64,000 bases of DNA from Haliotis asinina (Eukaryota; Mollusca; Gastropoda; Lepetellida; Haliotidae), in contig NC_090291.1 in assembly GCF_037392515.1 (NCBI RefSeq), positions 29,374,001 to 29,438,000 of the forward strand. Direction: 5' to 3'. A program made the position numbers and the translations under genes. Positions 20,837 to 49,112 of this stretch are shown piece after piece. A model generated the notes under the pieces. It was not told where the DNA came from and made no database searches. It saw only the letters and a program-made list of their open reading frames with translations. Numbering within the stretch: the stretch's first letter is position 1; every line of letters begins with the position of its first letter.

Positions 20837-20849
20837 ATCTCATGGCTGA

Positions 20850-23800: not shown

Positions 23801-24270
23801 ATTACGTTAATGTTTTCTGATGGATAAAACATCTCATAGTTCAAATCACAATTTTCCAGCGATACGGTAACATTTGCAATGTTTACTCTTCCACAATGCA
23901 ATCGTGGAATGTCGCTTGACTAGTCAGCTTCATGTGTGTGTGCTGATATAAACTTATGTCGGTGGTTGAAATGTAACATTCATATTGCCCCATATGGTTT
24001 ACATTAACCACATATGTAATTACAATAATTTGGAGAAGATACTTTTCCCAAAAGTAAACCGCCATCATACTGTTTATTATCTGTTTTATTTGGTAATGTT
24101 ACTCTCACCGTAGGGCAGCAGACACATCAAAGGAACAGCACATCAGTTAGCCCTGTGCGAGGATTCTTACTATAGGTCTTCACTGTCGTTTGTTTTCTAC
24201 CTTACATTAATCGTAATTATCATTAGAAAGTATTAAATTTGGCATCTTAGAAAAGAAATAAAGTTCACGC
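20850..24270. other. Gene-poor stretch upstream of the first RHIM-death-domain gene
   Basis: No exon is recognisable. The only candidate for a 5' exon is around 22,770-22,865, where an ATG in good context (TCATCATGG, near 22,792) opens about 20 codons in a locally GC-richer patch. I could not find a consistent donor, so it is not called. Confidence 0.35.
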
Positions 24271-24275
24271 TACCG

Positions 24276-24401
24276 CAGTGTGTGTTGTAATAAACTATAG
24301 TTTTGCCCTGAACTGTTATAACATCAGAGCACTCTTACTACCGCCCTCGTGCTTTAACTATAATAGTTCCGGGCAAAACTATACTATTACAAAACACACT
24401 G
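24276..24401. repeat. Inverted-repeat (foldback) element
   Basis: CAGTGTGTGTTGTAATAAAC followed by TATAGTTTTGCCC is mirrored by GGGCAAAACTATACTATTAC followed by AAAACACACTG. Arms of about 40 bases flank a 45-base centre, and the ends CAGTGTG/CACACTG look like short terminal inverted repeats. Confidence 0.75.
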
Positions 24402-24499
24402 AATTTCCTAAATAAAACTAGTCCTTCAGACCCTGTTCCAGTTCATGACTACATAATATTTAGGTTCACACAAATCTATGCATGTGGATACAACTTTTA

Positions 24500-24775
24500 T
24501 GAGAATATGGGATATAAGCAACTAATGGGATCGGGTTGTCAGGTTCAGTGACCAGGGCCAGTTTCACAAAGCAATCCAAGCATTATGACTGTCGTAACTC
24601 TACTTTAAAGTATGGGAGTTACAATCACCTTAGCGATATGGTCGTTTTGTGAAGTAGGACCCTGAATGGCTCATGGTATCCTAATTACATGGATCTGATC
24701 ACTGGATTGTCTGGTCCAGACTGAATTATACTGCCACCACATAGCTGGAGTATTGCAGTGTTAAACAGTAACAGG
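24500..24775 (-). repeat. SINE-like repeat (CAGACAATCC family) split by a foldback MITE
   Basis: Reverse-complement family sequence (ACTAATGGGATCGGGTTGTC, then GATCACTGGATTGTCTGGTC and AGCTGGAGTATTGC) is interrupted at 24,553-24,664. The insert has CAGGGCCAGTTTCACAAAGC and GGTCGTTTTGTGAAG..CCCTG ends. The MITE is therefore the younger insertion. Confidence 0.75.
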
Positions 24776-25102
24776 CAAACAAAGAAAACAATGCTGTTAT
24801 TTCACCATAGCCTAGATGGTTAGCATATTTTGCCTAGAAAGTTGTTCCCTTTCTTTTCATCAAAATCTTCAAAGCTGTGTAAATTTCTCAATCAAAATTT
24901 CATGTAATACCATTGCAACGGTATATTTTGTCATTGCATATAATTTTTCTCATCTCTTGACAAAATGGAGGAATCATTATATAGTTTATCAATTTTGTGT
25001 GTCTTTTGTTTTCCTATCATCACTGTTACCTCTGACAGTCAATTGAATTCAAAACATTGAAAATATTTATGTTCCATTTAATGCCTCATCTTCAAAACAC
25101 AG

Positions 25103-25154
25103 GACTGCAATCTAACCAACATACAGCACTCTGCTGCACAGGCTGATCAAGAAT
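25103..25154 (+). CDS. Tentative upstream exon of RHIM-death-domain gene 1
   Basis: The acceptor CAAAACACAG precedes GACTGC and the donor reads GAAT|GTGGGT. The frame DCNLTNIQHSAAQADQE joins in phase to the exon starting at 25398. A competing model uses an acceptor near 25134, a donor near 25222 (GAGGA|GTATAT) and the acceptor at 25392. Both keep the frame open and I cannot choose firmly. Confidence 0.35.
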
Positions 25155-28100
25155 GTGGGTGCAGGGATGCACATCTACCCGACACATACCACATACCCAC
25201 TCACCACTGAAACAATTTTCCCTGAGGAGTATATCCCTGGGGAGCATGATTTATGTGCACAGCCCTTCATCAAAATCCTGTATCCTTTCATGGCTTTGAT
25301 GTTGGTTGGTACACACTCCTACCTTCTGAAGACAACTGTCGATGATGACCTCTGCATTTTCACTTATCTGTGTCCTTTTTTCACATGTGCAGATTAGCAG
25401 ACCCAGGGATACCAATCATGTCAGGGCCAAGTATGCCAGAGGTAAGAGTTGAGTGAGTGAGTGAGCTTAGTTTTACATCGCTTTTAGCTATATCCGAGCA
25501 ATATGACCAGAGATGGACCACAATGTACATGTGGAGAATTAAACCCTGGTCATCAGTATGACAGGCGAAAGGCTTTATTAAAACCACCAGATAAGAATTA
25601 AAAGTCAGAAGGAAAGTGTCCCCCAATTCTGACATTAAACGACAAAAGCGTTCCTGGTTTTCCTGCAAATGTGGAAATTTATGCCTTGATGTGATAGGAA
25701 AGTATTTTTTGTCAATTTGATCTTTCTTATTCTTGCTGCAAAGTCAGGGGATCAGATCAAAACCGTGACTTTGATGATTATTGTGTTCAGACCTGACTTG
25801 CTGGCATTGATAACTTGTCTTTATGCAGAATATAGAAGAAGATGCCTCTGCTGAGAAGTCAGGAGCTTGTGGTGGGAGCACCGACAAGGACAGCAACAAC
25901 ACCACCACACACATCACATACACAGGTAACTAGGGCTGGGACAGGTCTACATTTTCTACCCAGGTACTCCACCCCCTTTTACCCAACCCTACCCAGATGC
26001 CCATTATGTTAATTCCTGACATCAAATTTTTAAAACAGGACAATAGAGTTTTCAGCTCGGAGACTTAAAAATTAGGATTTCAATATTTTTACCTTGTATT
26101 GTATTTAAAAGAAGTGACTGGAAATTATGTCCAAATCTTCCAAGACAATACGACCAGGAAATAATAACATATTACCATGTTTAATCTATTACTCACATGA
26201 TCATAACAGTTCGGGTATTGAGACCAGTGTCAGGGTCCACCTATCACCCACCTGACCCGTCCCAGCCCAACACGTAAACACTTAATATGTCCACTGGCTT
26301 GTACCTTGATGATCTTACAGTGGATAACAAGTACCTGGCTTTATGTGGAAGTAGATCTTACTGTAGGTAACAAGTACCTGGCCTGATACTGATGTAGATC
26401 TTACTGTAGATAACAAGTACCTGGCCTTATACTGATGTAGATCTTACTGTAGGTAACAAGTACCTGGCCTTATACTGATGTAGATCTTACTGTAGATAAC
26501 AAGTACCTGGCCTTATACTGATGTAGATCTTACTGTAGATAACAGGTACCTGGCCTTATATCTAAGTAGCTTGATGATGTTTCTGTAGATTAGAAGTGCC
26601 TAGCCTTATATTGAAGTACCTTGATGATCTTGCTGTAGATTACAAGTACCTGTTGTAGCTTGATGATCTTTCTGTAGATTACAAGTACCTGGCTTTATAT
26701 TGAAGCAGCTTGATGGTCTTACTATGGATAACCAGTACTGTGGTATGCACCTAAGTGGTTTGTTTATAATTACACACAAATCATCCAGCTCCTCACATTC
26801 ACTTTTTCTTCAATTTCTGCTCAGCCCCAGATGGTGCCAAGTTCAATGTCCACACTTCTGGCAAGGCACCTAACATGCAGGTGGGCTACAACAATGTCAT
26901 GCATGTGACTGACAGCTCATTCTCCAACACAAAAAGACCCAGGTTGCGACCAAAGATAGAGCCAACTCTGCCTTTAGTCAGTAAGTTGGCCCCAGAACAT
27001 TTCAGCATTAGTATGACTGGTGTTTCAATGTGTGGTGTTTGGCCCCAGAACATTTCAGCATAAGTGTGACTGGTGTTTCCATGTGTGGTGTTGATATTTC
27101 TGTGACTTTCAAGGATTGTCCAGGACAGGAAATTACATGCAGTGCTTGTTTGATTGGTCATCTTAATCGGACATTTCCTGAAATTTAGCAGCCATGTCTC
27201 AGCAGAGGACTATATCTTGATCTTTGCTGTACTACAGTCAGTTTGACTCCAGATAAGAACAATGTATAGTAAGCATAGAATATTAATTGTCAGTATGATA
27301 CATGGCAATATCTCCTCTATGCTTTTATGAACCTAACTGGGAAAAGTTGTTTAAGAAACATATTGTTACATCAACCAGTTGACATCTTAAATGGTAACAG
27401 AAACTGATCAAACTTGCACTTGGTACTCAACAATTCAAATGACCTGTAAGATCTAGTGTTTACATTATGATGATGATACCAAAATTCTTAGGTTCTCAGC
27501 AATTTTTGCAAGGGTGTTTCTTAATTTTACATGCAGCAAGCTGGCTAGTACATCATATATGTTTGGTTTTCTTGTCATATTTTGTCCCTGCTGGTGAGTA
27601 AATGCGTTAAAATCTATCACATCAGCATTATTTTTGCCATGGCGGAATATGGAATGTTAAATGTGAATATTGGTTCTGTTTTCGTCTATCAAAATATTTA
27701 CATGTTCTTGTTTACACTGTGATTATGACATTTATAATATTATAATTTATCCCATTTTCAAGAAATGGGTCACGTGAGCTACAGTGCCTTATGACTCCAT
27801 TTTTTTAACATTTAATTATATGTTTTGATTTATGTTTACAAAGTGCCAAACAGTATCTGTTTCTCTCTATTAAGAATCAACAGAGGTCCCTGGGGCCACT
27901 GCTATGGAAATAATTGCCGCCAATATCGGCAAGGACTGGAGATATCTAGGACGAACACTTGGACTGAGTGAAGGAGAGCTGGACAATATTAGAGCTGACT
28001 ACCACATAGAGGGCCAGTATGAGATCAGCTACCAAACTGTTCGCAAATGGAAGGAACAAGGATACCCAACAGAACTCCGACGACTTGCAAAATGCTTAGT

Positions 28101-28164
28101 AAAAATGGGCCGTGGTGATATCGCCGACAAGCTGGCAAAAATGAAGGCGGCAGGAGAATCCTGA
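25103..28164 (+). CDS. RHIM-death-domain adaptor gene 1 (IMD/RIPK1-like, no kinase seen); 3' exons
   Basis: Multi-exon gene, 5' end not found. Exons: 25103-25154 (tentative), 25398-25441 (or from 25393), 25829-25925, 26825-26980 and 27875-28164. Joining them keeps one open frame. The third listed exon is acidic and Ser/Thr/Asn-rich and contains IEED-ASAE, which resembles a caspase-8-type cleavage site. The 26825-26980 exon encodes NMQVGYNNVMHV, a good match to the RHIM core (V/I-Q-V/I-G with N at +3 and a hydrophobic end). It is followed by a basic stretch, KRPRLRPK. The last exon is a death domain of about 85 residues, with IGKDWRYLGRTLGLSEGELD and a conserved W in VRKWKEQ. RHIMs form heteromeric amyloids, and the death domain should recruit FADD-like partners (family knowledge). 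RHIM plus death domain without kinase matches insect IMD. A kinase or other N-terminus upstream cannot be excluded. An AATAAA lies at 29083-29088. Confidence 0.8.
25398..25441 (+). CDS. Exon of RHIM-death-domain gene 1, proline-rich linker
   Basis: It encodes DPGIPIMSGPSMPE and ends CCAGAG|GTAAGA, a strong donor, in phase 0. Acceptors are possible at both 25392 and 25397. The minus-strand frame over the same bases is a shadow. Confidence 0.55.
25452..25585 (-). repeat. Decayed tRNA-derived SINE in intron
   Basis: GAGTGAGTGAGTGAGC and TTTTACATCGCTTTTAGCTA, followed by GAATTAAACCCTGGTCATC, match the reverse complement of the family. It begins about 11 bases after the donor at 25442. Confidence 0.65.
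25829..25925 (+). CDS. Exon of RHIM-death-domain gene 1 with caspase-like site
   Basis: Acceptor TTATGCAG and donor ACACAG|GTAACT; phase 0 in, phase 1 out. It encodes 32 residues, low-complexity, starting NIEEDASAEK and ending in a Thr/Asn-rich run. The second adaptor gene has a shorter exon with the same phases at 31725-31767. Confidence 0.7.
26310..26725. repeat. 43-bp minisatellite in an intron of adaptor gene 1
   Basis: About nine units containing ACAAGTACCTGGCCTTATAC and AGATCTTACTGTAG recur every 43 bases in the middle, with shorter and more diverged units at the 3' end. It lies in the intron just upstream of the RHIM exon. Confidence 0.9.
26825..26980 (+). CDS. RHIM exon of adaptor gene 1
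   Basis: Acceptor TTCTGCTCAG and donor TTAGTCA|GTAAGT; phase 1 on both sides, 156 bp. The RHIM core NMQVGYNNVMHV is followed by a basic patch and an acidic-proline linker (KIEPTLPLV). The open frame continuing past 26980 is intron. Confidence 0.85.
27875..28164 (+). CDS. Death-domain exon of adaptor gene 1
   Basis: Acceptor TCTCTCTATTAAG. The exon encodes about 96 residues to a TGA at 28162-28164. The death domain covers nearly all of it: helix 1 EIIAANIGKDW, helix 2 YLGRTLGLSEGELDNI, a Tyr-rich middle (QYEISYQTVRKWKEQG), and a C-terminal helix in GRGDIADKLAKM. Confidence 0.9.
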
Positions 28165-28569
28165 GAAGATTTGTTCCTGTAAAACTGACTGACTTTTATT
28201 AACTTTTTTGTCAAAGGCAGATGTTCATCTGTGATAACTATTGTCATACCACTCAAACTCATTAAAATCAGTCTTTGAAGTTTGTACGCTACATCTTCAC
28301 ACAAGGTGCAGTAATTGTGAACAGATACCATTTTTCTTCAAATATAGGACTTATGGTTTCAAATACACATATTTTGATAATAGTCTGCCTGTGTTCTTTC
28401 TTGCAAAGAATAATTTATGACTGAAGTGCCATAATTGAATATTTGTAAATCATCCAAAGCTGATGGTTCAGACATGAAAAAAATTAGTTGTATATGTAGT
28501 CAGTTAATTTTTTTTTATCATGATGATTGAAGCTGCAAGTAACATAAATGTCATGAGAGGTGATCAGTT

Positions 28570-28790
28570 GGAGAGTTGGCTGGTGTTTTACGCAGCACTA
28601 AACAATATGACTGTATGACAGCGGGCAGTAAATAATTGAATCTGGATCAGACAATTCAGTGATCAACAGCATGGACAGGTGGAAGGATTCATTTTTACCC
28701 TTCTGGCCAGGACCGGTGCTCAAGGTGTCAGTCACTTGTTTATCTGGTCCAGACTGTTAGAAACTGTTATGACATAGCTACAATGGTGGG
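28570..28790 (+). repeat. SINE-like repeat, CAGACAATCC family, in the 3' region of gene 1
   Basis: TTTTACGCAGCACTAAACAA, GCGGGCAGTAAATAATTGAA and CAGACAATTCAGTGATCAAC are recognisable. It is diverged and lies between the stop codon and the AATAAA at 29083, so it may be part of the 3' UTR. Confidence 0.7.
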
Positions 28791-29082
28791 GGTTGTATGA
28801 ACAAGTGAACAGTTTTTTGTATTAAAAAAAGTTGTTTATTAAGGTTGAAAAAAAAAAGAAGTTTACATTTGTAGACAGGGTATTCTTTAAAGATATCACA
28901 TCATTATTTATTTCTGTTAGCGAGTTCTGAAAACATGAAGGCCAGCATGTACATGTATGTCTAAATTCCCAGCCGGTCTCCAAGAGACATTGATCTGCCT
29001 CTTATCCAGATTTTTAAGAAATGTTTAAAGAACCTAATAGTGTACATAATGTCTTGTACTATTCACTTGTATGACTTTTTAC

Positions 29083-29088
29083 AATAAA
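29083..29088 (+). promoter_or_regulatory. Candidate polyadenylation signal of adaptor gene 1
   Basis: AATAAA about 920 bases after the stop at 28164. It is the first canonical hexamer downstream on this strand that I noticed. Confidence 0.5.
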
Positions 29089-29539
29089 ATGTAGAAAAGA
29101 GAAAATGCCTCGTGAAGTCTTTTACCAGTTTTGAATGTTCGTTGTTGATATTGATATTTACTAGAGTGAGTAAAAATGAGAGAAAATTGGATCCAGATTT
29201 CAACTATCTGCAAGCGTATCAGTTTACATGGCAGTAAAATGTATTGTCAGTCAATACTCTCGACCTAACTGGAGCCAGCAGTTTCCCACATTGGGGAGAG
29301 GCAGGGTTTGGTGTGATGTTTTCTTACCTTGATGAGGCAGCAGTATTATTTGTATTATTATCAGTATTAGATGTTGTGTTACCTCAACCAGGTGTGAATG
29401 GTTCTGCTTATACTGATAAAAACACTCACTCTACCATTGAAATATTCAGAGGTGCTTATTTAATTTTATATTTCACTTAGTATGTATTATACTCAGAGTC
29501 TGATAGATTAATAATGACCCTATTTCTTATTGTTGTCCT

Positions 29540-29645
29540 GTTGGTTTTGTTTTGTTTTGGGTTTGTTTGGGTTTTTTTTTTTTGGGGGGGGGGGTTGTTG
29601 TTTGGGTTTTTTTTGTTTGGTTGTTGTTTTTTTGTTTATTTATTC
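29540..29645. repeat. T/G low-complexity tract
   Basis: Runs of T with interspersed G, including an 11-base G run near 29583-29594, separate the two adaptor genes. Confidence 0.85.
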
Positions 29646-29877
29646 TTCCATGGCATAAGTCAAGAAGTCTGAAAACATGTCGAAATTAATTAAATCACAT
29701 GTTTAGAAATATAAATGAAAATCAAGCTACATTCTTCATGCAATTTACTTTCATTGCAAAGACAAACTCAGTCGCATGTCATTGCGATGACATTAACATG
29801 AGAGGTGTCGCTTACAATGCATTCGCGTGGTACAAGCATTGCACAGAGCTTTTAGAAGCCGGAAGCACGCTGTTATC

Positions 29878-30008
29878 TATAAATAGCAGTTGCGGGAAAA
29901 CCCAAAACATTTTCCAACTTTCGTTACTGATTTCGTCTTTAAGAAAACCCAACATTTAGAAACTAGCTTTTCCCATATCATTTGACGTATACTGATTTTG
30001 AAGAAATG
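29878..30008 (+). promoter_or_regulatory. Candidate core promoter and first exon of adaptor gene 2
   Basis: TATAAATA at 29878-29885 is followed at 29894-29903 by GGGAAAACCC, which fits the insect Dorsal/Rel consensus GGGWWWWCCM. About 100 bases later an ATG at 30006-30008 sits directly on a donor, GAAATG|GTAAGT. A TATA box, a start region and a short first exon ending on the initiator codon is a coherent reading. I did not find the next exon with certainty, so the link to the gene is inferred from position. Confidence 0.4.
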
Positions 30009-30160
30009 GTAAGTGTTTCATCGCATAGTCTTTGACTCGAAGCAGGACTTCGGTCTGCGGACAGATATTTAGAAGAGGTTATATCCTGTTACTAGTCTCA
30101 GTAAGTTACATCTCAAATATGTACGATTGTGTTCGCTCAGTGTCAACTGTATTGTAAACC

Positions 30161-30327
30161 GAGTGAGTGAGTTTATTTTACGCCGCTTGTTTAGCAATAT
30201 TCCAGCAATATCACGGCGGGGGGCACCAGAAAATGGGCTTTACACATTGTACCCATGTGGGGAGTCGAACCCTGGTCTTCGGCGTGAAGGGCGAACGCTT
30301 TAACCACTAGGCTACCCCCACCGCCCC
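30161..30327 (-). repeat. Full-length tRNA-derived SINE
   Basis: On the minus strand: GGGGGCGGTGGGGGTAGCCT, GGTTAAAGCGTTCGCCCTTC, the B box GGTTCGACTCC, GTGATATTGCTGGAATATTG, GCGGCGTAAAATAAAC and a CACTCACTC tail. This is one of the best-preserved copies in the window and lies in the first intron of adaptor gene 2 under the proposed model. Confidence 0.9.
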
Positions 30328-31402
30328 CGTAGCGTAAACTGTTATATTCACCTTGCGTATATTCATATAAAAGACATATATCATTTTAAATAAATCATTT
30401 TATCGGTATGTTTACACTGAATTAATTGAAATCTTTATGTTGGTATATATATAATAAATTGATTGAAATCTTTATGTCTGTACATACATAATAATATTTA
30501 ATTGAAATCTTTATGTCCGTATATATTTTTAAAATTAATTAAAATCTGTCTGAATTGGAAATCTAACACCAATATTTAACAACCTTAGTAGAGACTGTAC
30601 CATTATTATCAATCAAAGTCTAACTTCACTTGGTAGCTATCATCATCAGTCTGGATGTGTTCCGTTTTCCTTAATTAACGTGTGACAACTGAGTGTGTAT
30701 GTTGAATATTATATGGGGAGAGGCATTAATATAGGCAATTTGCCTGTTTGAAAATCTCCCGAAACCTTGTCCTTTGTAAAATTATACACATGTTTAACCC
30801 CCACCCCCTTAATGCCTATGTTTTATATATAACAAATGAAATGAAATCTTAATATGTTTGTGTTGTCAGTTGAGTCTTTTTATACAAAAAGAAATAAATT
30901 GTAATCTTTATCCATTAAAGATAATTATCATAACCATTGATACCGTTACTTAGGGGCTGGTTCAGCTTAAGGCCGGTTCGGGTGTATTCGGATTACATTG
31001 GCCTTTTGGAAGTAAGGCTTTAACTTGTGTAACATTGTTGGTGTTTGTTGGCAGTGAAAAAGCAATGTTTACCAGTGAGAATGATTGATAAAATTGTTTT
31101 CAAACATTGAAAAAAAAATATTATGTTAATATAGTGTTTAAAGTAAGGACCATCATGATCTTGTTCTGAAAGTCATGATTTGTTTGACAGGAGTGAGGCT
31201 GAAACTAGTTCTGTCAGAAGGCATTATTGTAATCAAGTGAAATACTGATTTCAGATCTCCTTATAAGAAAGTGGAGACATATATCTACTTTATTATGTAC
31301 TGAGCATTGAAGCACTCTTATAATGTCAGTTGATGTTCCAGTTTTGACTCACTAAAGTCACAACTCCTAAACTTTATTCCTTCAATGTTATTTACCCTTA
31401 TT

Positions 31403-31454
31403 TACCCTCTACCCTCTACCCTCTACCCTCTACCCTCTACCCTCTACCCTCTAC
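31403..31454. repeat. (TACCCTC)n microsatellite
   Basis: Seven perfect 7-base units. This is not the metazoan telomere hexamer. Confidence 0.95.
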
Positions 31455-31724
31455 AAAACCCTAATGATGTCATGTATATTGCCTTTTATGGCATATGTAA
31501 TGTATCAGAGAAATTAAAAAATGGAAATGTATTTAACATTTCATTTTTCAAGAATAATAAAGTATTTGTTCACCTAAATTTGAGGTGTTTTATATGAACT
31601 AAGGTGTAAATGTTCCTGTTTTAAAGTACTATAGCTAGTAATCATGACAATGGTATATGATGAGTGTGTCCAGTGAGGATGTGATGGCAGTAATCAGTCA
31701 TAATTCCTGTGTTTAATGTTGTAG

Positions 31725-31767
31725 AACAATGGTGGTGGTGCTTCAAGAGGTCCTCCAAGATCTACCG
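31725..31767 (+). CDS. Linker exon of adaptor gene 2
   Basis: Acceptor AATGTTGTAG and donor TCTACCG|GTACGT; 43 bp, phase 0 in and phase 1 out, equivalent to the 97-bp exon at 25829 in gene 1. It lacks that exon's IEED-A motif. Confidence 0.65.
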
Positions 31768-34700
31768 GTACGTGATGTGCAGCCCTTTCAGTTCGACTTT
31801 TGAAGATCTGGGTTAGAATTGATCTTCAGCTACCCATGCTTGTGACTAACAGGATCAGGCTCGCTGACTTGGTTAACACATTGTCATCATATCCTAACTG
31901 CATGGATCGATGCTGATGCTGTTGATCATTGGAATGTCTGGTCCAAACTCAATTATTCACAGATTGCTGCCATATAGATCCAGTATTACAAAGTCTAACA
32001 ACAAACCAACCAAACTTTCCTATTCACCAGGATGATCCAGGATAGAATTAAGTTTCACCAACCAGTGCTTGTCATAACAACTGACTAACAGTATCAGGTG
32101 GTCATTTTGCTGACGTATTGCTGAGTGCAGCTTTAACAAACATACAAAACAAACAAACAAAAAGATATCATATTTTAATGTAAAAAGTCCAGTTCCTTGA
32201 AAATTCCCAAAGTGTGTGAATTATCTTTCAGCAACAGATATTTACTGGTGTACATAACCCTTCCCTAATTCCCTCAGTGGTTCTATTCTGTGATGGTTCT
32301 GCACTTCTGTTTTCGGTAAAACTTTCTGTCTCCTATGCAAAATATTTACTGGTGTGTAGATTTTCAATCTTTAGGGGCAGTCATTTTGAAGATTACTTCT
32401 AGACTGATCTTGAAATCGGTCTGGATTGAAATCGGTGCTGTCTGGAGCCTGGCACCTGCCGCTATGAATATAGTTAATCTATACCATTAAAAAAAGTAGG
32501 GGATACTGGATTTACAGGATTGATAAAATGCAAATGATGAAGCCAAGGAGAAGATAGATGATGAAGAGAAATTAAAGAAAAATGTGACAGTTTGTTCCTT
32601 TTCCTTGGCAATGTTTCATGGGTGTGGATATATATTACTTTTTCTCATATGCATAGGCATTGACTAGTGGTATGTTCACAAAATAGAATATCTCCTCCAT
32701 AATATGGATAGATAAAAAAAGTCAACATGTAGCTCAGTAAGATATTTGAGGTGATCTGGATAATATATGAGACTTTTGATGATCATGTATTTAGTAAAAA
32801 CTGTTATTGAATGAACAAGTTACATTAGTTATGTGTTGATCATCCAGTCTAAACTAAAAAGTAAACCAGGAATCATCCTGTAAAAGAACTTGTTGCAAAC
32901 CCAACAAACATCAAGGCAATATGATGTAATTAACAAGTGTATTCTAAAATAACTAAGTTCACAAATCAGTGAGTGCATGAGTTTTATGCCGCACTCAGCA
33001 ATATTCCAGCTATATGGCAGCGGTCTGTAAATAATCAAGTCTGAACCAGACAATCTAGTGATCAACATTATGGGTATCGATCTGCGCAATTGGGAACCGA
33101 TGACATGTGCTAACCAAGTCAGCGAGCCTGTCACCTCTTACGACAGAGTCACCTTTTATGGCAAGCATGGGTTGCTGAAGGCCTCTTCTACTCCAGACCT
33201 TCACAGGTCCACAAATCATTGCTGAAGGCCTGTTCTACCCCAGACCCTCACAGGTCCACAAATCATTACAAGTCACAGTGGCGGTACAAACTGAAAGGCA
33301 GTATAACACATATCTGTGATTGTAGCAATTAAGACAGTCAGGGTAATATCCACATCACTAGACTGAACATTGAGGGTGAAAATGATCTCCACACAATGGC
33401 TGGTCTACTTCGAACATTAGATGCGATATGAGGCAAGAGTTAGCTCCCCTTATATACTTAAGCTCAAGACTCCAGGCTGTTCTCCAACTCTCTGGATCAG
33501 GATAGCTCATACGGTTTTCGTACTTTGTAGTAAGTGAATATGTTTTTTGACTGCTTTTAGCTATATTCCAGCAACATCACAGCAGGGACATCAGAAATGG
33601 CTTCACAGATTGTACCCATGTGGGCCTACACCATGACAAGCAAACTCTTAACCACTAGATTACCCCACGTACCGCTCCTCCAGAATATAACACACCAGTG
33701 CACATCATTGACTGTCCACATGTAAAGTGTTTGCTCTGATGCAGAATACCTGCATATTTGACACACAAATTATCTCAAATACGCAGTGAACATTAAAGCT
33801 TAAGCTTAAGATTAAACAATCACAGCTGATGTCTTGATGAAATTTCCATACTGGAGTTGACTCCCAAAAACATGTCCATGACTTCTCATAACACCATGGA
33901 GTCATGATGACTCCTGAATTTTCATGTCTAGGACAAACACTGCATGTACAATGCATTACACTTGGAACATTGTCACACAGTCAGCTTAAAACAATATTCA
34001 TAACCGTAGTTATGTATTTATGCATCTAATGTCTGCTATCTCCAGCAATTTAAAAGGCTACCACCTTTTCCATTTTCGATAATTTAGCTTTGTAGAAAGT
34101 CAGGTGTTGTTTTGAAGTGTTAAATTTCTGGCTTCGCAGTGTTTTCGGATACAAAGAGCTCTGGGATACAGATAGGCTGCAGTAACATTTTGAACGTGCA
34201 AGGTGGTGCAGGAGTGCAAACTAGGAGTCGGCAGAGGACAGCAGCATCTGTACCAAAAGTGAAAGAAAAGAAACCCAAGCGACTGCCGTCCAGTAAGTAT
34301 ACAGCAAAGGAGTGAGGTTTGTTTTATGCCACACTCAGCAATATTCCAGCTATATGGGGGATACAGCAAGGGAACATTGGAGCATGTTTAATAGAGATAA
34401 GGACTAGTACATGTGCTGTAGGGGATTGGAGAGGTAGGTTTTTGTTCATACACTTTTCTTAAAGACACAATTTTGTTCCCATGGAAAGGAAGAGCTGAAA
34501 TATTAAGCAAAATATTTTTAAAATTCATTGGTGAATCAAACACCCAGTCACGATCTGTAGTGCGTCAACCACCCATGTCACCATCAGCAATGAATCAAAC
34601 ACCCAGTCACCATTAGTAGTGAATCAAACACCCAGTCACCATCAGCAGTGAATTAAACACCCAGTCACCATCAGCAGTGAATCAAACACCCAGTCACCAT

Positions 34701-37700
34701 CTGTGGTGAATCATACACCCAGTCACCATCAGCTGTGAATCAAACACGCAGTCACCATCAGCATGAGTCAAACAACCAGTAACTATCAGCAATCAACCTC
34801 CATCAGTGGTGACTCATACATCCAGTCACCATCAGCGGTGAATCAAACACGCAGTCACCATCAGTAGTGAATCAAACACCCAGTCACTATCAGTTGTGAA
34901 TCAAACACCCAGTCACTATCAGCAATGAATCAAACACCCAGTCACTATCAGCTGTGAATCAAACACACAGTCACTATCAGCAGTGAATCACACCCAGTCA
35001 CCATCATCTGTAAATCATACACCCAGTCACCATCAGCTGTGAACCAAACATGCAGTCACCATCGGCATGAGTCAAACAACCAGTAACTATCAGCAGTAGA
35101 CCAAATTCCATCATTGGTGACTCATACATCCAGTCACCATCAGCAGTGAATCAAACACCCAGTCACCATCAGTTGTAACACTGGATCAAACACACAGTCA
35201 CCATCAGCAGTGAATCAAATACCCAGTGACCATAGCAGTGAATTAAACATGCAGTCACCATCAGTAGTGAATCAAATACCCAGTCACCATCAGCTATGAA
35301 TCAAACACGCAGTTACCATCAGTAGTGAATCAAACACCCAGTCACTATTAGTTGTGAATCAAACACCCGGTCACCATTAGCAGTGAATCAAACACACAGT
35401 CACTATCAGCAGTGAATCAAACATCCAGTCACCATCAGCAGTGAATCAAATACCCAGTCACCATCAGCTGTGAATCAAACACCCAGTCACTATCAGCAGT
35501 GAATCAAACACACAGTCACTATCAGCGATGAATCAAACACCCAGTCACTATCAGCAATGAATCAAACACACAGTCACTATCAGCGATGAATCAAAACCTC
35601 AGTCACCATCAGCAATGAATCAAACAACAAGTCACCATCAGCTGTGAATCAAACACCCAGTCACCATCAGCTGTGAATCAAACACACAGTCACCATCAGC
35701 AGTGAATCAAACACCCAGTCACTATCAGCAGTGAATCAAACACACAGTCACCATCAGCTGTGAATCAAACACACAGTCACCATCAGCTGTGAATCAAACA
35801 CCCAGTCACCATCAGCTGTGAATCAAACACACAGTCACTATCAGCAGTGAATCAAACACACAGTCACCATCAGCAGTGAATCAAACACACAGTCACTATC
35901 AGCAGTGAATCAAACACCCAGTCACTATCAGCAATGAATCAAACACACAGTCACTATCAGCGATGAATCAAACACCTAGTCACTATCAGCAGTGAATCAA
36001 ACACACAGTCACTATCAGCAGTGAATCAAACACACAGTCACTATCAGCAATGAATCAAACACACAGTCACTATCAGCGATGAATCAAACACACAGTCACT
36101 ATCAGCAGTGAATCAAACACACAGTCACCATCAGCTGTGAATCAAACACACAGTCACTATCAGCAGTGAATCAAACACACAGTCACCATTAGCAGTGAAT
36201 CAAACACACAGTCACCATCAGCTGTGAATCAAACACACAGTCACTATCAGCAGTGAATCAAACACCCAGTCACTATCAGCAATGAATCAAACACACAGTC
36301 ACTATCAGCGATGAATCAAACACACAGTCACTATCAGCAGTGAATCAAACACACAGTCACCATCAGCTGTGAATCAAACACACAGTCACCATCAGCAGTG
36401 AATCAAACACCCAGTCACCATCAGCTGTGAATCAAACACACAGTCACTATCAGCAGTGAATCAAACACCCAGTCACCATCAGCTGTGAATCAAACACACA
36501 GTCACCATCAGCTGTGAATCAAACACACAGTCACTATCAGCAGTGAATCAAACACCCAGTCACCATCAGCTGTGAATCAAACACACAGTCACTATCAGCA
36601 GTGAATCAAACACCCAGTCACTATCAGCAATGAATCAAACACACAGTCACTATCAGCGATGAATCAAACACCTAGTCACTATCAGCAGTGAATCAAACAC
36701 ACAGTCACTATCAGCAGTGAATCAAACACACAGTCACTATCAGCAATGAATCAAACACACAGTCACTATCAGCGATGAATCAAACACACAGTCACTATCA
36801 GCAGTGAATCAAACACACAGTCACCATCAGCTGTGAATCAAACACACAGTCACTATCAGCAGTGAATCAAACACACAGTCACCATTAGCAGTGAATCAAA
36901 CACACAGTCACCATCAGCTGTGAATCAAACACACAGTCACTATCAGCAGTGAATCAAACACCCAGTCACTATCAGCAATGAATCAAACACACAGTCACTA
37001 TCAGCGATGAATCAAACACACAGTCACTATCAGCAGTGAATCAAACACACAGTCACCATCAGCTGTGAATCAAACACACAGTCACCATCAGCAGTGAATC
37101 AAACACCCAGTCACCATCAGCTGTGAATCAAACACACAGTCACTATCAGCAGTGAATCAAACACCCAGTCACCATCAGCTGTGAATCAAACACACAGTCA
37201 CTATCAGCAGTGAATCAAACACCCAGTCACCATCAGCTGTGAATCAAACACACAGTCACTATCAGCAGTGAATCAAACACCCAGTCACTATCAGCAATGA
37301 ATCAAACACACAGTCACTATCAGCGATGAATCAAACACCCAGTCACTATCAGCTGTGAATCAAACACCCAGTCACTATCAGCAGTGAATCAAACACACAG
37401 TCACCATTAGCAGTGAATCAAACACACAGTCACCATCAGCAGTGAATCAAACACCCAGTCACTATCAGCAATGAATCAAACACACAGTCACTATCAGCAG
37501 TGAATCAAACACCCAGTCACTATCAGCTGTGAATCAAACACCCAGTCACTATCAGCAGTGAATCAAACACACAGTCACCATCAGCAGTGAATCAAACACA
37601 CAGTCACCATCAGCAGTGAATCAAACACCCAGTCACTATCAGCAATGAATCAAACACACAGTCACTATCAGCAGTGAATCAAACACCCAGTCACTATCAG

Positions 37701-40700
37701 CTGTGAATCAAACACCCAGTCACTATCAGCAGTGAATCAAACACACAGTCACCATCAGCAGTGAATCAAACACCCAGTCACTATCAGCAGTGAATCAAAC
37801 ACCCAGTCACTATCAGCAGTGAATCAAACACCCAGTCACTATCAGCAGTGAATCAAACACCCAGTCACTATCAGCAGTGAATCAAACACCCAGTCACTAT
37901 CAGCTGTGAATCAAACACACAGTCACTATCAGCAGTGAATCAAACACACAGTCACCATCAGCTGTGAATCAAACACACAGTCACCATCAGCAGTGAATCA
38001 AACACCCAGTCACTATCAGCAGTGAATCAAACACCCAGTCACTATCAGCAGTGAATCAAACACCCAGTCACTATCAGCAGTGAATCAAACACCCAGTCAC
38101 TATCAGCAGTGAATCAAACACACAGTCACTATCAGCAGTGAATCAAACACACAGTCACTATCAGTGATGAATCAAACACCCAGTCACTATCAGCAGTGAA
38201 TCAAACACCCAGTCACTATCAGCAGTGAATCAAACACCCAGTCACCATCAGCTGTGAATCAAACACACAGTCACCATCAGCAGTGAATCAAACACCCAGT
38301 CACTATCAGCAGTGAATCAAACACCCAGTCACCATCAGCTGTGAATCAAACACCCAGTCACCATCAGCTGTGAATCAAACACCCAGTCACCATCAGCTGT
38401 GAATCAAACACCCAGTCACTATCAGCAGTGAATCAAACACCCAGTCACTATCAGCAGTGAATCAAACACCCAGTCACTATCAGCTGTGAATCAAACACAC
38501 AGTCACTATCAGCAGTGAATCAAACACACAGTCACTATCAGCAGTGAATCAAACACCCAGTCACTATCAGCAGTGAATCAAACACCCAGTCACTATCAGC
38601 AGTGAATCAAACACACAGTCACTATCAGTGATGAATCAAACACCCAGTCACTATCAGCAGTGAATCAAACACCCAGTCACTATCAGCAGTGAATCAAACA
38701 CCCAGTCACCATCAGCTGTGAATCAAACACACAGTCACCATCAGCAGTGAATCAAACACACAGTCACTATCAGCAGTGAATCAAACACCCAGTCACTATC
38801 AGCAGTGAATCAAACACCCAGTCACTATCAGCAGTGAATCAAACACACAGTCACTATCAGTGATGAATCAAACACCCAGTCACTATCAGCAGTGAATCAA
38901 ACACCCAGTCACTATCAGCGATGAATCAAACACCCAGTCACTATCAGCAGTGAATCAAACACCCAGTCACTATCAGCAGTGAATCAAACACACAGTCACT
39001 ATCAGTGATGAATCAAACACCCAGTCACCATCAGCTGTGAATCAAACACCCAGTCACTATCAGCTGTGAATCAAACACCCAGTCACTATCAGCAGTGAAT
39101 CAAACACACAGTCACTATCAGTGATGAATCAAACACCCAGTCACCATCAGCTGTGAATCAAACACCCAGTCACTATCAGCAGTGAATCAAACACCCAGTC
39201 ACCATCAGCTGTGAATCAAACACACAGTCACCATCAGCAGTGAATGAAACACCCAGTCACCATTAGCAGTGAATCAAACACCCAGTCACTATCAGCAGTG
39301 AATCAAACACCCAGTCACTATCAGCAGTGAATCAAACACCCAGTCACTATCAGCAGTGAATCAAACACCCAGTCACTATCAGCAATGAATCAAACACACA
39401 GTCACCATTAGCAGTGAATCAAACACCCAGTCACTATCAGCAGTGAATCAAACACCCAGTCACTATCAGCAGTGAATCAAACACCCAGTCACTATCAGCA
39501 GTGAATCAAACACCCAGTCACTATCAGCGATGAATCAAACACACAGTCACTATCAGCAGTGAATCAAACACCCAGTCACTATCAGCAGTGAATCAAACAC
39601 CCAGTCACCATCAGCTGTGAATCAAACACACAGTCACCATCAGCAGTGAATCAAACACACAGTCACCATCAGCAGTGAATCAAACACACAGTCACCATCA
39701 GCTGTGAATCAAACACACAGTCACCATCAGCAGTGAATGAAACACCCAGTCACCATTAGCAGTGAATCAAACACCCAGTCACTATCAGCAGTGAATCAAA
39801 CACCCAGTCACTATCAGCAGTGAATCAAACACCCAGTCACCATCAGCTGTGAATCAAACACCCAGTCACTATCAGCAGTGAATCAAACACCCAGTCACCA
39901 TCAGCTGTGAATCAAACACCCAGTCACTATCAGCAGTGAATCAAACACCCAGTCACCATCAGCTGTGAATCAAACACACAGTCACCATCAGCTGTGAATC
40001 AAACACCCAGTCACCATCAGCTGTGAATCAAACACCCAGTCACTATCAGCAGTGAATCAAACACCCAGTCACCATCAGCTGTGAATCAAACACACAGTCA
40101 CCATCAGCAGTGAATCAAACACCCAGTCACTATCAGCAGTGAATCAAACACCCAGTCACTATCAGCGATGAATCAAACACACAGTCACCATCAGCAGTGA
40201 ATCAAACACCCAGTCACCATCAGCTGTGAATCAAACACACAGTCACCATCAGCAGTGAATCAAACACACAGTCACCATCAGCAGTGAATCAAACACACAG
40301 TCACCATCAGCAGTGAATCAAACACCCAGTCACTATCAGTGATGAATCAAACACCCAGTCACCATCAGCTGTGAATCAAACACCCAGTCACTATCAGCGA
40401 TGAATCAAACACCCAGTCACTATCAGCTGTGAATCAAACACCCAGTCACTATCAGCAGTGAATCAAACACCCAGTCACTATCAGCGATGAATCAAACACA
40501 CAGTCACTATCAGCAGTGAATCAAACACCCAGTCACTATCAGCAGTGAATCAAACACCCAGTCACCATCAGCTGTGAATCAAACACACAGTCACCATCAG
40601 CAGTGAATCAAACACACAGTCACCATCAGCAGTGAATCAAACACACAGTCACCATCAGCTGTGAATCAAACACACAGTCACCATCAGCAGTGAATGAAAC

Positions 40701-43379
40701 ACCCAGTCACCATTAGCAGTGAATCAAACACCCAGTCACTATCAGCAGTGAATCAAACACCCAGTCACTATCAGCAGTGAATCAAACACCCAGTCACCAT
40801 CAGCTGTGAATCAAACACCCAGTCACTATCAGCAGTGAATCAAACACCCAGTCACCATCAGCTGTGAATCAAACACCCAGTCACTATCAGCAGTGAATCA
40901 AACACCCAGTCACCATCAGCTGTGAATCAAACACACAGTCACCATCAGCTGTGAATCAAACACCCAGTCACCATCAGCTGTGAATCAAACACCCAGTCAC
41001 TATCAGCAGTGAATCAAACACCCAGTCACCATCAGCTGTGAATCAAACACACAGTCACCATCAGCAGTGAATCAAACACCCAGTCACTATCAGCAGTGAA
41101 TCAAACACCCAGTCACTATCAGCGATGAATCAAACACCCAGTCACTATCAGCAGTGAATCAAACACCCAGTCACTATCAGCAGTGAATCAAACACACAGT
41201 CACTATCAGTGATGAATCAAACACCCAGTCACCATCAGCTGTGAATCAAACACCCAGTCACTATCAGCGATGAATCAAACACCCAGTCACTATCAGCTGT
41301 GAATCAAACACCCAGTCACTATCAGCAGTGAATCAAACACCCAGTCACTATCAGCAGTGAATCAAACACCCAGTCACCATCAGCTGTGAATCAAACACAC
41401 AGTCACCATCAGCAGTGAATGAAACACCCAGTCACCATTAGCAGTGAATCAAACACCCAGTCACTATCAGCAGTGAATCAAACACCCAGTCACCATCAGC
41501 TGTGAATCAAACACACAGTCACCATCAGCAGTGAATGAAACACCCAGTCACCATTAGCAGTGAATCAAACACCCAGTCACTATCAGCAGTGAATCAAACA
41601 CCCAGTCACTATCAGCAGTGAATCAAACACCCAGTCACCATCAGCTGTGAATCAAACACCCAGTCACTATCAGCTGTGAATCAAACACACAGTCACCATC
41701 AGCAGTGAATCAAACACCCAGTCACTATCAGCTGTGAATCAAACACCCAGTCACTATCAGCTGTGAATCAAACACACAGTCACCATCAGCAGTGAATCAA
41801 ACACCCAGTCACTATCAGCGATGAATCAAACACACAGTCACTATCAGCAGTGAATCAAACACCCAGTCACTATCAGCAGTGAATCAAACACCCAGTCACT
41901 ATCAGCAGTGAATCAAACACCCAGTCACTATCAGCAGTGAATCAAACACCCAGTCACCATCAGCTGTGAATCAAACACACAGTCACCATCAGCAGTGAAT
42001 CAAACACACAGTCACCATCAGCAGTGAATCAAACACACAGTCACCATCAGCTGTGAATCAAACACACAGTCACCATCAGCAGTGAATGAAACACCCAGTC
42101 ACCATTAGCAGTGAATCAAACACCCAGTCACTATCAGCAGTGAATCAAACACCCAGTCACTATCAGCAGTGAATCAAACACCCAGTCACCATCAGCTGTG
42201 AATCAAACACCCAGTCACTATCAGCAGTGAATCAAACACCCAGTCACCATCAGCTGTGAATCAAACACCCAGTCACTATCAGCAGTGAATCAAACACCCA
42301 GTCACCATCAGCTGTGAATCAAACACACAGTCACCATCAGCTGTGAATCAAACACCCAGTCACCATCAGCTGTGAATCAAACACCCAGTCACTATCAGCA
42401 GTGAATCAAACACCCAGTCACCATCAGCTGTGAATCAAACACACAGTCACCATCAGCAGTGAATCAAACACCCAGTCACTATCAGCAGTGAATCAAACAC
42501 CCAGTCACTATCAGCGATGAATCAAACACACAGTCACCATCAGCAGTGAATCAAACACGCAGTCACCATCAGCAGTGAATCAAACACACAGTCACTATCA
42601 GTGATGAATCAAACCTTCAATCACCATCAGCAGTGAATCAAACATCCAGTCACCATCAGTGGTAACTCATACATCCAGTCACCATAGCGGTGACTCAAAC
42701 ACCCAGTCACCATCAGCAGTGTATCAATCACCCAGTCACCATCAGCTGTGAATTAAACACCCAGTTACCATCAGCAATGAATCAAACACCCAGTCACCAT
42801 CAGCAGTGAATCAAACACGCAGTAACCATCTGCAGTGAATCAAACACCCAGTTACCATCAGCGGTAAAACAAACAAATATAGTTCAGAAATCCAACATGG
42901 AAGTCAGTTTTCATAATAACAGATTTCAGCTGTCCCAGGATGTCCCAGGACGGGTATATGGATATATGGACTGGGATACAGGGGATATAGTATGTCCATC
43001 CATGTTTTTGCCTGCTCCTTTATCTGGATGTTCACATTTTGATCAAAGACAGGTCACTGGCAGTTTGTTATGGCCATGTTTAACTGTAATCCTTTCAGAG
43101 TCTGAAAATGAGCCCTCACTGGACCAGATGGACAAAGTGTGTAAAACACTCAACAAGTACAAGGACACAGCGTGGAGGGACCTGGGGACCAAGCTGGGTC
43201 TGAGCAATGGGGAACTGGACACAATCTACCATGACCGCCATGCAGAAGGAGACTATGAACTGTCCTATCAAACCCTGTTGCGATGGAAACAACGACAGCC
43301 CACACCCCCACAGGTTAAGGTGTTGGCTCAAGCACTCTGTGATATTGGAAGGGGAGACCTCTCGGACATACTGGCATAA
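31725..43379 (+). CDS. RHIM-death-domain adaptor gene 2 (paralogue of gene 1), 3' exons
   Basis: Exons 31725-31767, 34140-34292 and 43099-43379 join in one frame with the same phases (0-1, 1-1, 1-stop) as the last three exons of the gene about 4 kb upstream. Protein order: a Gly/Pro-rich linker (NNGGGASRGPPRST); a RHIM, SSGIQIGCSNILNV, closer to the RIPK1 core IQIG than gene 1 is; a basic patch (KVKEKKPKRLP); then a death domain with the pattern WRDLGTKLGLSNGELDTI, LSYQTLLRWKQ and GRGDLSDILA. The expected role is an adaptor that polymerises through RHIM and recruits death-domain partners. The RHIM-to-death-domain intron is about 8.8 kb and almost entirely minisatellite. Upstream exons are not identified. 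The open frame beginning at 42897 runs through the intron and is not the protein start. Confidence 0.8.
31800..32150 (-). repeat. Two neighbouring SINE-like copies, CAGACAATCC family
   Basis: The first, about 31,800-32,010, has GATCTTCAGCTACCCATGC, GGAATGTCTGGTCCAAACTC and TTATTCACAGATTGC. The second, about 32,030-32,150, is shorter and internally deleted (CCAGTGCTTGTCATAAC, then TATTGCTGAGTGCAGC). Confidence 0.7.
32967..33185 (+). repeat. Full-length SINE-like repeat, CAGACAATCC family
   Basis: It runs from TTTTATGCCGCACTCAGC through CGATCTGCGCAATTGGGAAC to AAGCATGGGTTGCTGAAGGC. It is the longest intact copy on the plus strand. Confidence 0.9.
33171..33267. repeat. 48-bp duplication at the SINE 3' end
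   Basis: The block TGCTGAAGGCC..TTCTAC..CCAGACC..CACAGGTCCACAAATCATT occurs twice in direct succession. Confidence 0.85.
33532..33669 (-). repeat. tRNA-derived SINE, decayed
   Basis: GACTGCTTTTAGCTATATTC, CAGCAACATCACAGCAGGG, TGTACCCATGTGGGCC and TTAACCACTAGATTACCCC follow the reverse-complement order of the family. Confidence 0.75.
34140..34292 (+). CDS. RHIM exon of adaptor gene 2
   Basis: Acceptor TTCTGGCTTCGCAG and donor CCGTCCA|GTAAGT; 153 bp, phase 1 on both sides. It encodes FSDTKSSGIQIGCSNILNV, then a Gly/Gln stretch and a basic patch. Length and phases match the 156-bp RHIM exon of gene 1. Confidence 0.85.
34310..34360 (+). repeat. Short SINE fragment
   Basis: GTTTTATGCCACACTCAGCA and ATATTCCAGCTATATGG match only the family's 5' end. 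It lies 18 bases into the intron. Confidence 0.75.
34545..42870. repeat. 29-bp minisatellite, about 285 copies, filling an intron
   Basis: The unit contains AGTCACYATCAGC, GTGAATCAAACAC and a variable CCC/ACA end. The core of the array is regular at 29 bases; the outer few hundred bases on each side have diverged units of uneven length, as expected for older edges. Unit variants recur as ordered blocks: a CCTAGTC variant repeats 696 bases apart (24 units, near 35,975 and 36,671). A GAATGAAAC variant repeats 957 bases (33 units; 39,735 and 40,692) and 1,392 bases (48 units; 40,692 and 42,084) apart. This shows higher-order duplication. The unit length is not a multiple of three, and the array lies wholly inside the intron 34,293-43,098. 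Confidence 0.97.
43099..43379 (+). CDS. Death-domain exon of adaptor gene 2
   Basis: Acceptor AATCCTTTCAG; the exon runs to a TAA at 43377-43379. An acidic start (SENEPSLDQMD) leads into a death domain of about 80 residues, WRDLGTKLGLSNGELDTI to GRGDLSDILA. It aligns residue by residue with the gene 1 domain (GLS-GELD-I, SYQT-RWK, L-A-GRGD--D-LA). The acceptor lies about 230 bases after the end of the minisatellite. Confidence 0.9.
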
Positions 43380-43904
43380 CATCAACAGTTTCATTCCATA
43401 ACACCAAAGAAAGAATAATACAAAGAAAAGAAGATTTATGGAGGTCAAATTTTTTATTGTGAATAATGCGTTGTGTATGAGGGCTCCTTCATCAGGTGAA
43501 TGGTGGGAATATCTGTAGACATATATTGAGGTGCTGCAAAGAACACATGTTTAACAATTTTGAACAGTGTTGAAGAAATCTAATGTCATACAAACATGAG
43601 GTTAGTGATACACTAAAACAACAAGGTAATAATTAGGACTGGGACGGCTACTTAGGTGCTCGAATCTAGGTCTGGTACAGCTTGAATCGAGTACCCGGAA
43701 AGGGAGAGAACTCTGTAATGACAAGGGCAGATAATGACTTGTCTCTTTCAGTATTGACATAATATATATATACATCATTGGTATTATCCGATTAATGGAT
43801 CTCAGTGTATAGTCAAGTTACAGTAACAGCTGGAAGAAAATGTTCCGTGTTTTAACAAGGCATATAAGTATTGGTGTTATTTTGATATTGGTTATACAGA
43901 CGTA

Positions 43905-43910
43905 AATAAA
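43905..43910 (+). promoter_or_regulatory. Candidate polyadenylation signal of adaptor gene 2
   Basis: AATAAA about 525 bases after the stop. Weaker AATAAT forms occur nearer, at about 43412 and 43462. Confidence 0.4.
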
Positions 43911-44070
43911 CAGCTAGAGATTAGGTTTAATGTCTTATTGCCAAAGTTTAAAATTTTTAATAATAATTTCGGTCAAATAGTGATTGAAAATTCAGAACAA
44001 TGATAGAGCGGGCTTTATTCTTTACATTTCCGGGTACTCGATTCTGATTCGAGTAAGTACATGCAGATTC

Positions 44071-44900
44071 TCAATTCCACGTTTTCCTACCCGTCCCAGC
44101 CCTAATAATAATCGATATCATGGCGCATAGCATTATGTTGATAGGTCGCAGTTTTTCCCTGATGTACAGTTTTTCAAACTGACATAGAACCTGGTAGATG
44201 CATCCTATTGCATTAGGGCTTGCAGAGCAGGATCCTCTGCTGTTGACTTTGAGCAAATTCTTGATTGTCTTGCCACTGGTAAATGTGACTACACTGCCAC
44301 CTTTATTCTTGAAGAGGCAGGAGATCCTGTGGCTGATGGGTTCCATGTAGGGATTAACTCACTCTGATGGTGGATGGTGCAGGCTTTGTGGATGGTCTCA
44401 GTGGTGTTGAGGGTTTTGTATATGGTCTTGGTGACAAGGTCCACAGGGTACCCACAGTACCCACTGAGATATGTGAATGTGTCCTTTAGATGTTGCAGTT
44501 CATGGGTGTTGGCGTCTGGATGGCAGGTGGACTTTGCACATGTTGAAAGACTAGCTACAATGGCTGTCATGATCTGGGAGTGATGACAGGAGTTGTAGTG
44601 GATGTATTGGTCTATGTTTGTCAGTTTGTGGTACACAGAAGTTTTGAGTCCATAGCTTCTGGCTTGCAAGTCAACACCTAGGAAGGGGAAGTTGGTAGTT
44701 GGTCTCCATGGTACACCTGATGGGCCCTGAGATGTAACAGGTGGTCGTGGTCATTGTGGTGGGCGATGGTGGTGAAGGTGTTGTCAACTTTGCTGTACCA
44801 GCAGAGAGGCTGGAATGGATCAGTTGGGAGGGCTGCTTCTTCAATGGATGTCATGAAAATACTCCCTACCATTCACCTGATAAAGGAGCAAGCATGTTAA
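44071..44900 (-). mobile_element. Penelope-like retroelement fragment, broken
   Basis: Minus-strand frames in order resemble Penelope-like element proteins. Around 44,740-44,870, CWYSKVDNTFTTI matches the reverse-transcriptase palm region. Around 44,540-44,660, SVYHKLTNIDQYIHYNSCHH matches the family's S-V-Y-R-K-x-T-x-T-x-x-Y-x-H-x-x-S-x-H block. Around 44,150-44,210, GCIYQVLC..KLYI resembles the start of a GIY-YIG endonuclease. The frames are interrupted several times and the element is 5'-incomplete, so it is a relic. It lies about 200 bases past the candidate polyadenylation site of adaptor gene 2, on the opposite strand. Confidence 0.7.
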
Positions 44901-45984: not shown

Positions 45985-46195
45985 ATCCAGGACAGAATTC
46001 AGCCCATCATGCTTGTCATAGGAGGTGACAAAAAGGATCAAGTACTCCGCCTCACTGAAATGGTTTGACGTGTCATCGTATCCCAGTTGTGTAGATTAAT
46101 GCTCACTGGATTGTCTGGTCCAGACTCCATTATTTACAGACTGCTGCCATATAGCTGGAACTTTGCTGAGTGTGACATTAAACAACAATCAACGC
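45985..46195 (-). repeat. SINE-like repeat, CAGACAATCC family
   Basis: CATGCTTGTCATAGGAGG, CACTGGATTGTCTGGTCCAG, TTATTTACAGACTGCTGCC and ATATAGCTGGAACTTTGCTG are in reverse-complement order. Confidence 0.8.
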
Positions 46196-47240: not shown

Positions 47241-47397
47241 TCAATCATAGAGTATGTCATCAGTGAGGAGTGTTGTCAGTGGAGGGTGTTATCAATGGAG
47301 GATGCCAGGGATACGTGTAAGTGGGGGAGGGCATCAACAATACAGGGTATTTGAACAATGCAAGCAGTTAAAAGAACATCATGTCAACATTACATGG

Positions 47398-47885: not shown

Positions 47886-47949
47886 AGGGCGATGGAGTAG
47901 CCTAGTGGTTAAAGAGACAGCTCATCACGCCCACTCACTGGTAAAAACT

Positions 47950-49110: not shown

Positions 49111-49112
49111 AT

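Follow-up and report, generated by a model that had tools for sequence, protein, structure and literature searches.

Two described systems lie closest to the subject of this report, a tandem pair of genes in the mollusc Haliotis asinina (contig NC_090291.1, positions 29,374,001 to 29,438,000), each of which encodes a RIP homotypic interaction motif (RHIM) followed by a death domain; the genes are predictions known from DNA alone, are called copy 1 and copy 2, and are located by the numbering of the full 64,000-nt stretch analyzed (the window). The first system is RIPK1, which is defined by an N-terminal kinase, a C-terminal RHIM tetrad, and a death domain, and of which kinase-bearing homologues are reported from lancelets and from spiralians, the zebra mussel among them (PMC12119088). 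The sequence-only reading that preceded this analysis had placed the combination of RHIM and death domain in vertebrate RIPK1 and insect IMD, a background that needs to be widened to the kinase-bearing RIPK1 of spiralians and lancelets. Kinase-free RIPK1 C-termini, including that of the mussel, activate NF-kB in HEK293T cells, and mutation of the RHIM attenuated or prevented this activation for the lizard, lamprey, and mussel C-termini (PMC12119088). The second system is IMD of arthropods (e.g., Drosophila and Tenebrio), a short kinase-less adaptor with a C-terminal RIP-like death domain. In the fly, IMD has a RHIM or RHIM-like motif. The Tenebrio protein (TmIMD) has 202 aa and those of other insects 240–280, its death domain is said to resemble the one in mammalian RIP, and the caspase sites given for insect IMDs are LEKDA, LETDA, LTTDA, and LKSDA (PMC6626034). 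The genes in the window share the order RHIM then death domain with the C-terminal half of RIPK1 (vertebrates, lancelet, zebra mussel, and Lingula) and, like IMD, have a C-terminal RIP-like death domain and are kinase-less within the window. The locus probably consists of two anciently duplicated kinase-less adaptor genes, each encoding a linker, a RHIM, a basic patch, and a RIP-type death domain, that act like IMD or the C-terminal half of RIPK1 upstream of NF-kB.

Nearer to molluscs, the imd gene of the nemertean Lineus ruber, termed the first spiralian imd orthologue, also encodes an adaptor with a death domain; a RHIM is given as not found in the nemertean's transcriptome, whereas the pair in the window has RHIMs, and the Imd adaptor is given as previously not found in molluscs or brachiopods (PMC9835746). 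A survey of RIP kinases concluded that RHIM-regulated functions arose in vertebrates (PMC9573974), a conclusion contradicted by the RHIM of zebra mussel RIPK1 (PMC12119088). A bivalve iridovirus encodes a protein with a CARD and a RHIM that resembles sequences of bivalves (PMC12452177), suggesting that molluscs make use of RHIM proteins. A molluscan pair of RHIM-death-domain genes without a kinase makes the relation between IMD and RIPK1 testable, the question being whether arthropods lost the kinase or both lineages inherited a kinase-less adaptor; gene trees are needed to part the pair from ordinary molluscan RIPK1 before that relation can be inferred. Kajava et al. reportedly described, in 2014, RHIMs in non-vertebrate animals and fungi (cited in PMC12119088). 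No description of a tandem kinase-less RHIM-death-domain pair was found in full-text searches of open-licence papers, which is weak evidence of absence; on that evidence the tandem arrangement is apparently undescribed. The assignment of the pair to the IMD/RIPK1 type is sound. The features of the two copies, with the exons of each chain in order, are as follows:

25393..25441, plus strand: most 5' supported exon of copy 1 (phase 2 to 0; codes LADPGIPIMSGPSMPE; candidate start Met inside)
25829..25925, plus strand: second exon of copy 1 (phase 0 to 1; codes NIEEDASAEKSGACGGSTDKDSNNTTTHITYT; contains the candidate caspase site)
25832-25855, plus strand: candidate caspase site IEED/ASAE (slash marks the cut), residues 10–17 of copy 1, from a motif scan
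26825..26980, plus strand: RHIM exon of copy 1, 156 bp (phase 1 to 1; sequence read directly)
26875-26907, plus strand: RHIM core MQVGYNNVMHV of copy 1, then basic patch KRPRLRPK
27875..28164, plus strand: last exon of copy 1, 290 bp (phase 1 start; death domain and stop codon)
31725..31767, plus strand: probable exon of copy 2 (phase 0 to 1, as in the second exon of copy 1; codes NNGGGASRGPPRST)
34140..34292, plus strand: RHIM exon of copy 2, 153 bp (phase 1 to 1; sequence read directly)
34166-34198, plus strand: RHIM core IQIGCSNILNV of copy 2, then basic patch KEKKPKR
34293..43098, plus strand: intron of copy 2, 8.8 kb, mostly a 29-bp tandem array
34802-42875, within the copy 2 intron: 29-bp tandem array (~279 copies, 91% matches)
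43099..43379, plus strand: last exon of copy 2, 281 bp (phase 1 start; death domain and stop codon)

The two chains of RHIM and death-domain exons are confirmed as real. The sequence-only reading had described plus-strand chains with a RHIM, a basic patch, and a death domain and with matching phases and exon lengths, and direct reading of the sequence bears this out: all four RHIM and last exons start after AG, both RHIM exons end before GT, and the boundaries at 25925, 26825, 26980, 27875, 34140, 34292, and 43099 are all in phase 1. The RHIM pattern [VIMLC]Q[VILCM]GxxNx[MLVIF], applied to six frames of the whole 64 kb, matches twice, both times in the RHIM exons 5' of the death domains, on the same strand and in a phase that allows in-frame splicing (mean 0.18 and maximum 1 in 100 shuffled windows), and by this match the pair has the RHIM or RHIM-like motif of IMD. 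The tetrad of copy 2, IQIG, is a RIPK1 tetrad, whereas that of copy 1, MQVG, deviates. Compared alone, the two RHIM exons align over 29 columns with 9 identical (E 3e-4 as a single comparison), covering the motif and the basic patch. A search for relatives in viral contigs gave 25 pattern matches, 0 of them confirmed.

Both last exons encode a C-terminal RIP-type death domain, as RIPK1 does. The Pfam Death model matches copy 1 at E 2.1e-14 (53.8 bits) and copy 2 at E 5.5e-11 (42.9 bits; cut-off 22.6), and the two domains are 48% identical. In a many-against-many blastp comparison of upstream reading frames, the two death domains form the sole strong match among the best 60 rows (77 bits; others ≤30 bits), and in none of these rows do the 5' exons predicted for copy 1 pair with copy 2. 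Over 88 codons the death domains have identities of 0.53/0.67/0.30 at first, second, and third positions, a pattern that suggests protein-level selection on both genes ever since they were duplicated long ago; by NG86 the nonsynonymous divergence (dN) of the death domains is 0.58, and the synonymous divergence (dS) is not computable. It is very improbable that one or both copies are decayed pseudogenes, a reading that could draw on the 8 kb tandem array in the copy 2 intron and on the incomplete N-terminus of that copy; against it, the frames are open, the splice sites are present, and second codon positions are conserved with third positions near random. The array itself separates the RHIM and death-domain exons of copy 2, and alleles could differ in its length.

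Against PDB, the death domain of copy 1 matches RIPK1 best (1.5e-7), then FADD (5.1e-5), and for copy 2 the order is RIPK1 (4.1e-6) first and a DNA-activator B chain (0.0019) second, with PIDD (0.067) following RIPK1 among death domains. A profile built from both domains finds RIPK1 at 1.7e-10 (44.2 bits) and FADD at 4.6e-5 (26.8 bits), with TRADD at 25.6 bits and PIDD at 21.6 bits. FADD and TRADD are likewise death-domain adaptors in the same pathways; their matches are ~17–19 bits weaker than that of RIPK1, neither protein has a RHIM, and FADD has a DED. No IMD chain is among the PDB matches, and the death domain of TmIMD is itself described as RIP-like, so the rank of RIPK1 as best match for both copies does not by itself separate RIPK1 from IMD. 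Foldseek of an AlphaFold model of the two-row death-domain alignment found nothing at E ≤ 0.001, which is uninformative and was not counted; its first three rows are death domains (E 0.7–1.3), which are not used as support.

A kinase domain upstream in the same gene had been named in the sequence-only reading as the mark of ordinary RIPK1 orthologues, and none was found in the parts of the window covered by Pfam, PDB, or HRD/DFG scans. On the plus strand, Pfam scans (E ≤ 0.5) covered the three frames of 1-34700 and 42601-57572 as 12 members; Death, in 2/12 members, was the sole family returned, with no kinase, and the Death matches in the stretches scanned are these two exons only. Nor did a kinase turn up when the minus strand of these ranges (12 members) and both strands of 57001-64000 (6 members) were scanned; the matches there are transglutaminase domains and low-scoring hits to Herpes_gp350_B (E 0.006), CRIM1_C (0.21), and Ntox21 (0.14). 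Of the three plus frames of 15–30 kb searched against PDB, one yielded death domains and the other two had no match, and neither an HRD catalytic-loop nor a DFG pattern occurs on the plus strand in 1-25392, 28165-34139, or 43380-64000. The exons of a transglutaminase gene were detected downstream of the pair on the opposite strand, and such scans therefore pick up the exons of an ordinary split gene:

about 50,890-58,835, minus strand: transglutaminase gene exons, downstream of the pair
about 58,665-58,835, minus strand: Transglut_N (E 8.5e-25, two stretches)
about 54,719-54,826, minus strand: transglutaminase core (E 6.8e-5)
about 52,487-52,714 and 50,890-51,000, minus strand: transglutaminase C (E 2.1e-5 and 0.0019)

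Copy 2 almost surely has no kinase of its own, because its own upstream space, from the stop of copy 1 to its RHIM exon, is less than 6 kb; copy 1 appears kinase-less over the 25 kb upstream, i.e., to the edge of the window. It is accordingly unlikely that copy 1, or both copies by way of shared 5' exons, are ordinary RIPK1 orthologues with kinase exons more than 25 kb upstream and outside the window. Such orthologues would be in keeping with the kinase-bearing homologues of zebra mussel and other spiralians (PMC12119088), with the best match of the death domains to RIPK1, and with exon 25393-25441, which starts in phase 2 so that a further upstream exon is possible; but scans that did find transglutaminase exons found no kinase match either between the copies or over the 25 kb 5' of copy 1, and the candidates to feed 25393 score ≤2.8, compared with 7.5–10.6 for exons 25393-25441 and 25829-25925. 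The tandem RHIM-death-domain pair of IMD/RIPK1 type, without a kinase in reach, is in this respect upheld by profile, PDB, and kinase scans.

The 5' exons were predicted by scoring candidate splice sites and matching phases, and splice sites were ranked against the AG and GT scored in the window. Exon 25393-25441 is the highest-ranked candidate in 20700-26900 (acceptor at the 99.5th and donor at the 99.9th percentile), and exon 25829-25925, whose splice sites rank at the 97.4th and 99.5th percentiles, has phases compatible with both neighbors. These two are better supported than the 5' boundary at 25103 of the sequence-only reading: a first exon starting there (acceptor 1.6, 94.5th percentile) was set aside because of the two donors available before its frame closes, which score 2.0, in a phase that does not fit the next exon, and -2.5. 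The joined exons of copy 1 give 188 residues counted from the Met in exon 25393-25441, and an ATTAAA lies 97 bp 3' of its stop codon. For copy 2, 31725-31767 is with moderate confidence an exon (donor at the 99.4th percentile, acceptor merely at the 91.2nd), the joined exons give 158 residues without a start, and a search upstream gave no convincing exon with a start codon. An internal candidate at 28711-28785 (DRCSRCQSLVYLVQTVRNCYDIATM) runs from phase 0 to phase 0, scores 8.7, and could lead into 31725; it is without other support. Tandem repeats at 26311-26745, with 43-bp units first (5.8 copies), lie just 5' of the copy 1 RHIM exon, and a perfect 7-bp array (TACCCTC x 7.4) lies at 31403-31454.

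The want of a convincing start exon for copy 2, together with the phase 1 boundaries, also fits a single gene in which the exons 25393-25441 and 25829-25925 are shared and spliced to either RHIM-death-domain cassette. Two alternative joins were tried and both stay in frame: in one, the 5' exons of copy 1 run into the cassette of copy 2 and give one open frame; in the other, copy 1 skips its RHIM exon. This arrangement is nevertheless improbable, given that the probable exon 31725-31767 is phase-suited to serve copy 2 alone, that the candidate 28711-28785 could in turn supply it, and that copy 1 has its own stop followed by the ATTAAA.

Beyond the death domain, copy 1 may resemble arthropod IMD in having a caspase site: its candidate sits roughly as near the N-terminus as the LTTD/A site of TmIMD (residues 10–15). 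A loose pattern, [LIV][EKTS]xD[AGS], has 2 matches in three plus frames of 20700-26900, one of which is IEED/A, and no match in the plus strand of 28165-34140, i.e., none for the copy 2 exons found. The locus differs from arthropod IMD in that the genes form a tandem pair, the RHIM core is near the vertebrate form, the D/A site is in copy 1 only, and P4 is I instead of L; moreover, in TmIMD an intron interrupts the death domain (residues 120–191) behind base 467 of the coding sequence, a position derived from the published exon lengths (PMC6626034), whereas the death domains in the window are single-exon. As a sub-case of the kinase-less adaptor interpretation, the genes may be true IMD orthologues that descend with arthropod IMD from one kinase-less gene for a RHIM and a death domain in the protostome ancestor, a serious possibility though short of an even chance. 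The predicted 188 aa, set beside 202 in Tenebrio and 240–280 in other insects (PMC6626034), and the order of N-terminal D/A site, RHIM, and C-terminal RIP-like death domain speak for such descent; on the other side, the likeness to IMD was drawn from published descriptions, and loss of the kinase from RIPK1 yields an identical layout. It is doubtful whether one may go further and take the pair for molluscan IMD orthologues with an unmistakable RHIM and, in copy 1, a caspase/IAP switch, such that the full IMD mechanism would predate arthropods and copy 2, which has another RHIM tetrad and no switch, would be a built-in amyloid-tuning partner.

For two kinase-less adaptor genes, the proposed mechanism would start with an amyloid-like assembly of RHIMs, seeded by self-association or by an upstream RHIM protein. 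Death domains brought together in this way would recruit FADD and a caspase-8/DREDD-type caspase, and ubiquitin chains, IAP, and TAK1/IKK steps would then turn on NF-kB. RHIM-seeded assembly would probably feed NF-kB, by analogy, because the pair shares the kinase-free layout of the active RIPK1 C-termini (PMC12119088). Copy 1 could add an IMD-like step, in which a caspase cut at IEED/A bares an alanine-first IAP-binding end, and copy 2, whose tetrad is IQIG and whose identified exons lack such a site, may serve as a scaffold or modulator in mixed assemblies. The two RHIMs might co-assemble or compete, as the sequence-only reading proposed. The partners, the caspase step, and the division of labor are inferred.

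Several points weigh against reading the locus as a kinase-less adaptor pair. The Pfam scans omitted the tandem array at 34701-42600 and could have missed a lone kinase exon with a weak score. The start codon of copy 1, the Met in exon 25393-25441, is a candidate only; the N-terminus of copy 2 is incomplete and its 5' exons are provisional. The sequence-only reading had proposed checking the joined proteins against both profiles, and the check held for Death and failed for RHIM: the Pfam RHIM model has no match at E ≤ 10 to the RHIM exons or the joined proteins. In addition, phmmer of both RHIM exons against PDB gave no match, and the RHIM exons are absent among the best 60 rows of the blastp comparison. 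The MQVG tetrad of copy 1 departs at its first residue from V/I-Q-V/I-G and is absent from the main text of PMC12119088, in which the one-residue human RIPK3 variants TQIG and VQSG are reported to have lost NF-kB activation. The caspase motif, present in a single copy, was spotted post hoc, so that its frequencies in 20,000 shuffled copy 1 linkers (2.7% for the loose pattern and 0.1% for the strict pattern [LIV]ExDA) are generous. Finally, the AlphaFold model of the death-domain alignment has six helices and a poor mean predicted local distance difference test score (pLDDT 52.8).

Other elements of the window lie outside the pair or are dispersed around it. An open frame of 153 aa on the minus strand (44292-44750), which presumably resembles the tail of a retroelement reverse transcriptase, has only a sub-threshold Spaetzle match in Pfam (E 0.026) and no match in PDB. 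A 52-bp tandem array occupies 18520-20545 (38.8 copies, 93% matches). The dispersed repeat CAGCAATATTCCAGCTATATGG, which is taken here to be an abalone-type gastropod repeat, gave no match as a string in the literature text, viral contigs, or genome contigs searched. Within the window it is exact at 7542, 32996, and 34336 and occurs at six further sites, one copy lying 44 bp 3' of the copy 2 RHIM exon; these 9 matches with ≤3 mismatches compare with none in 100 shuffles.

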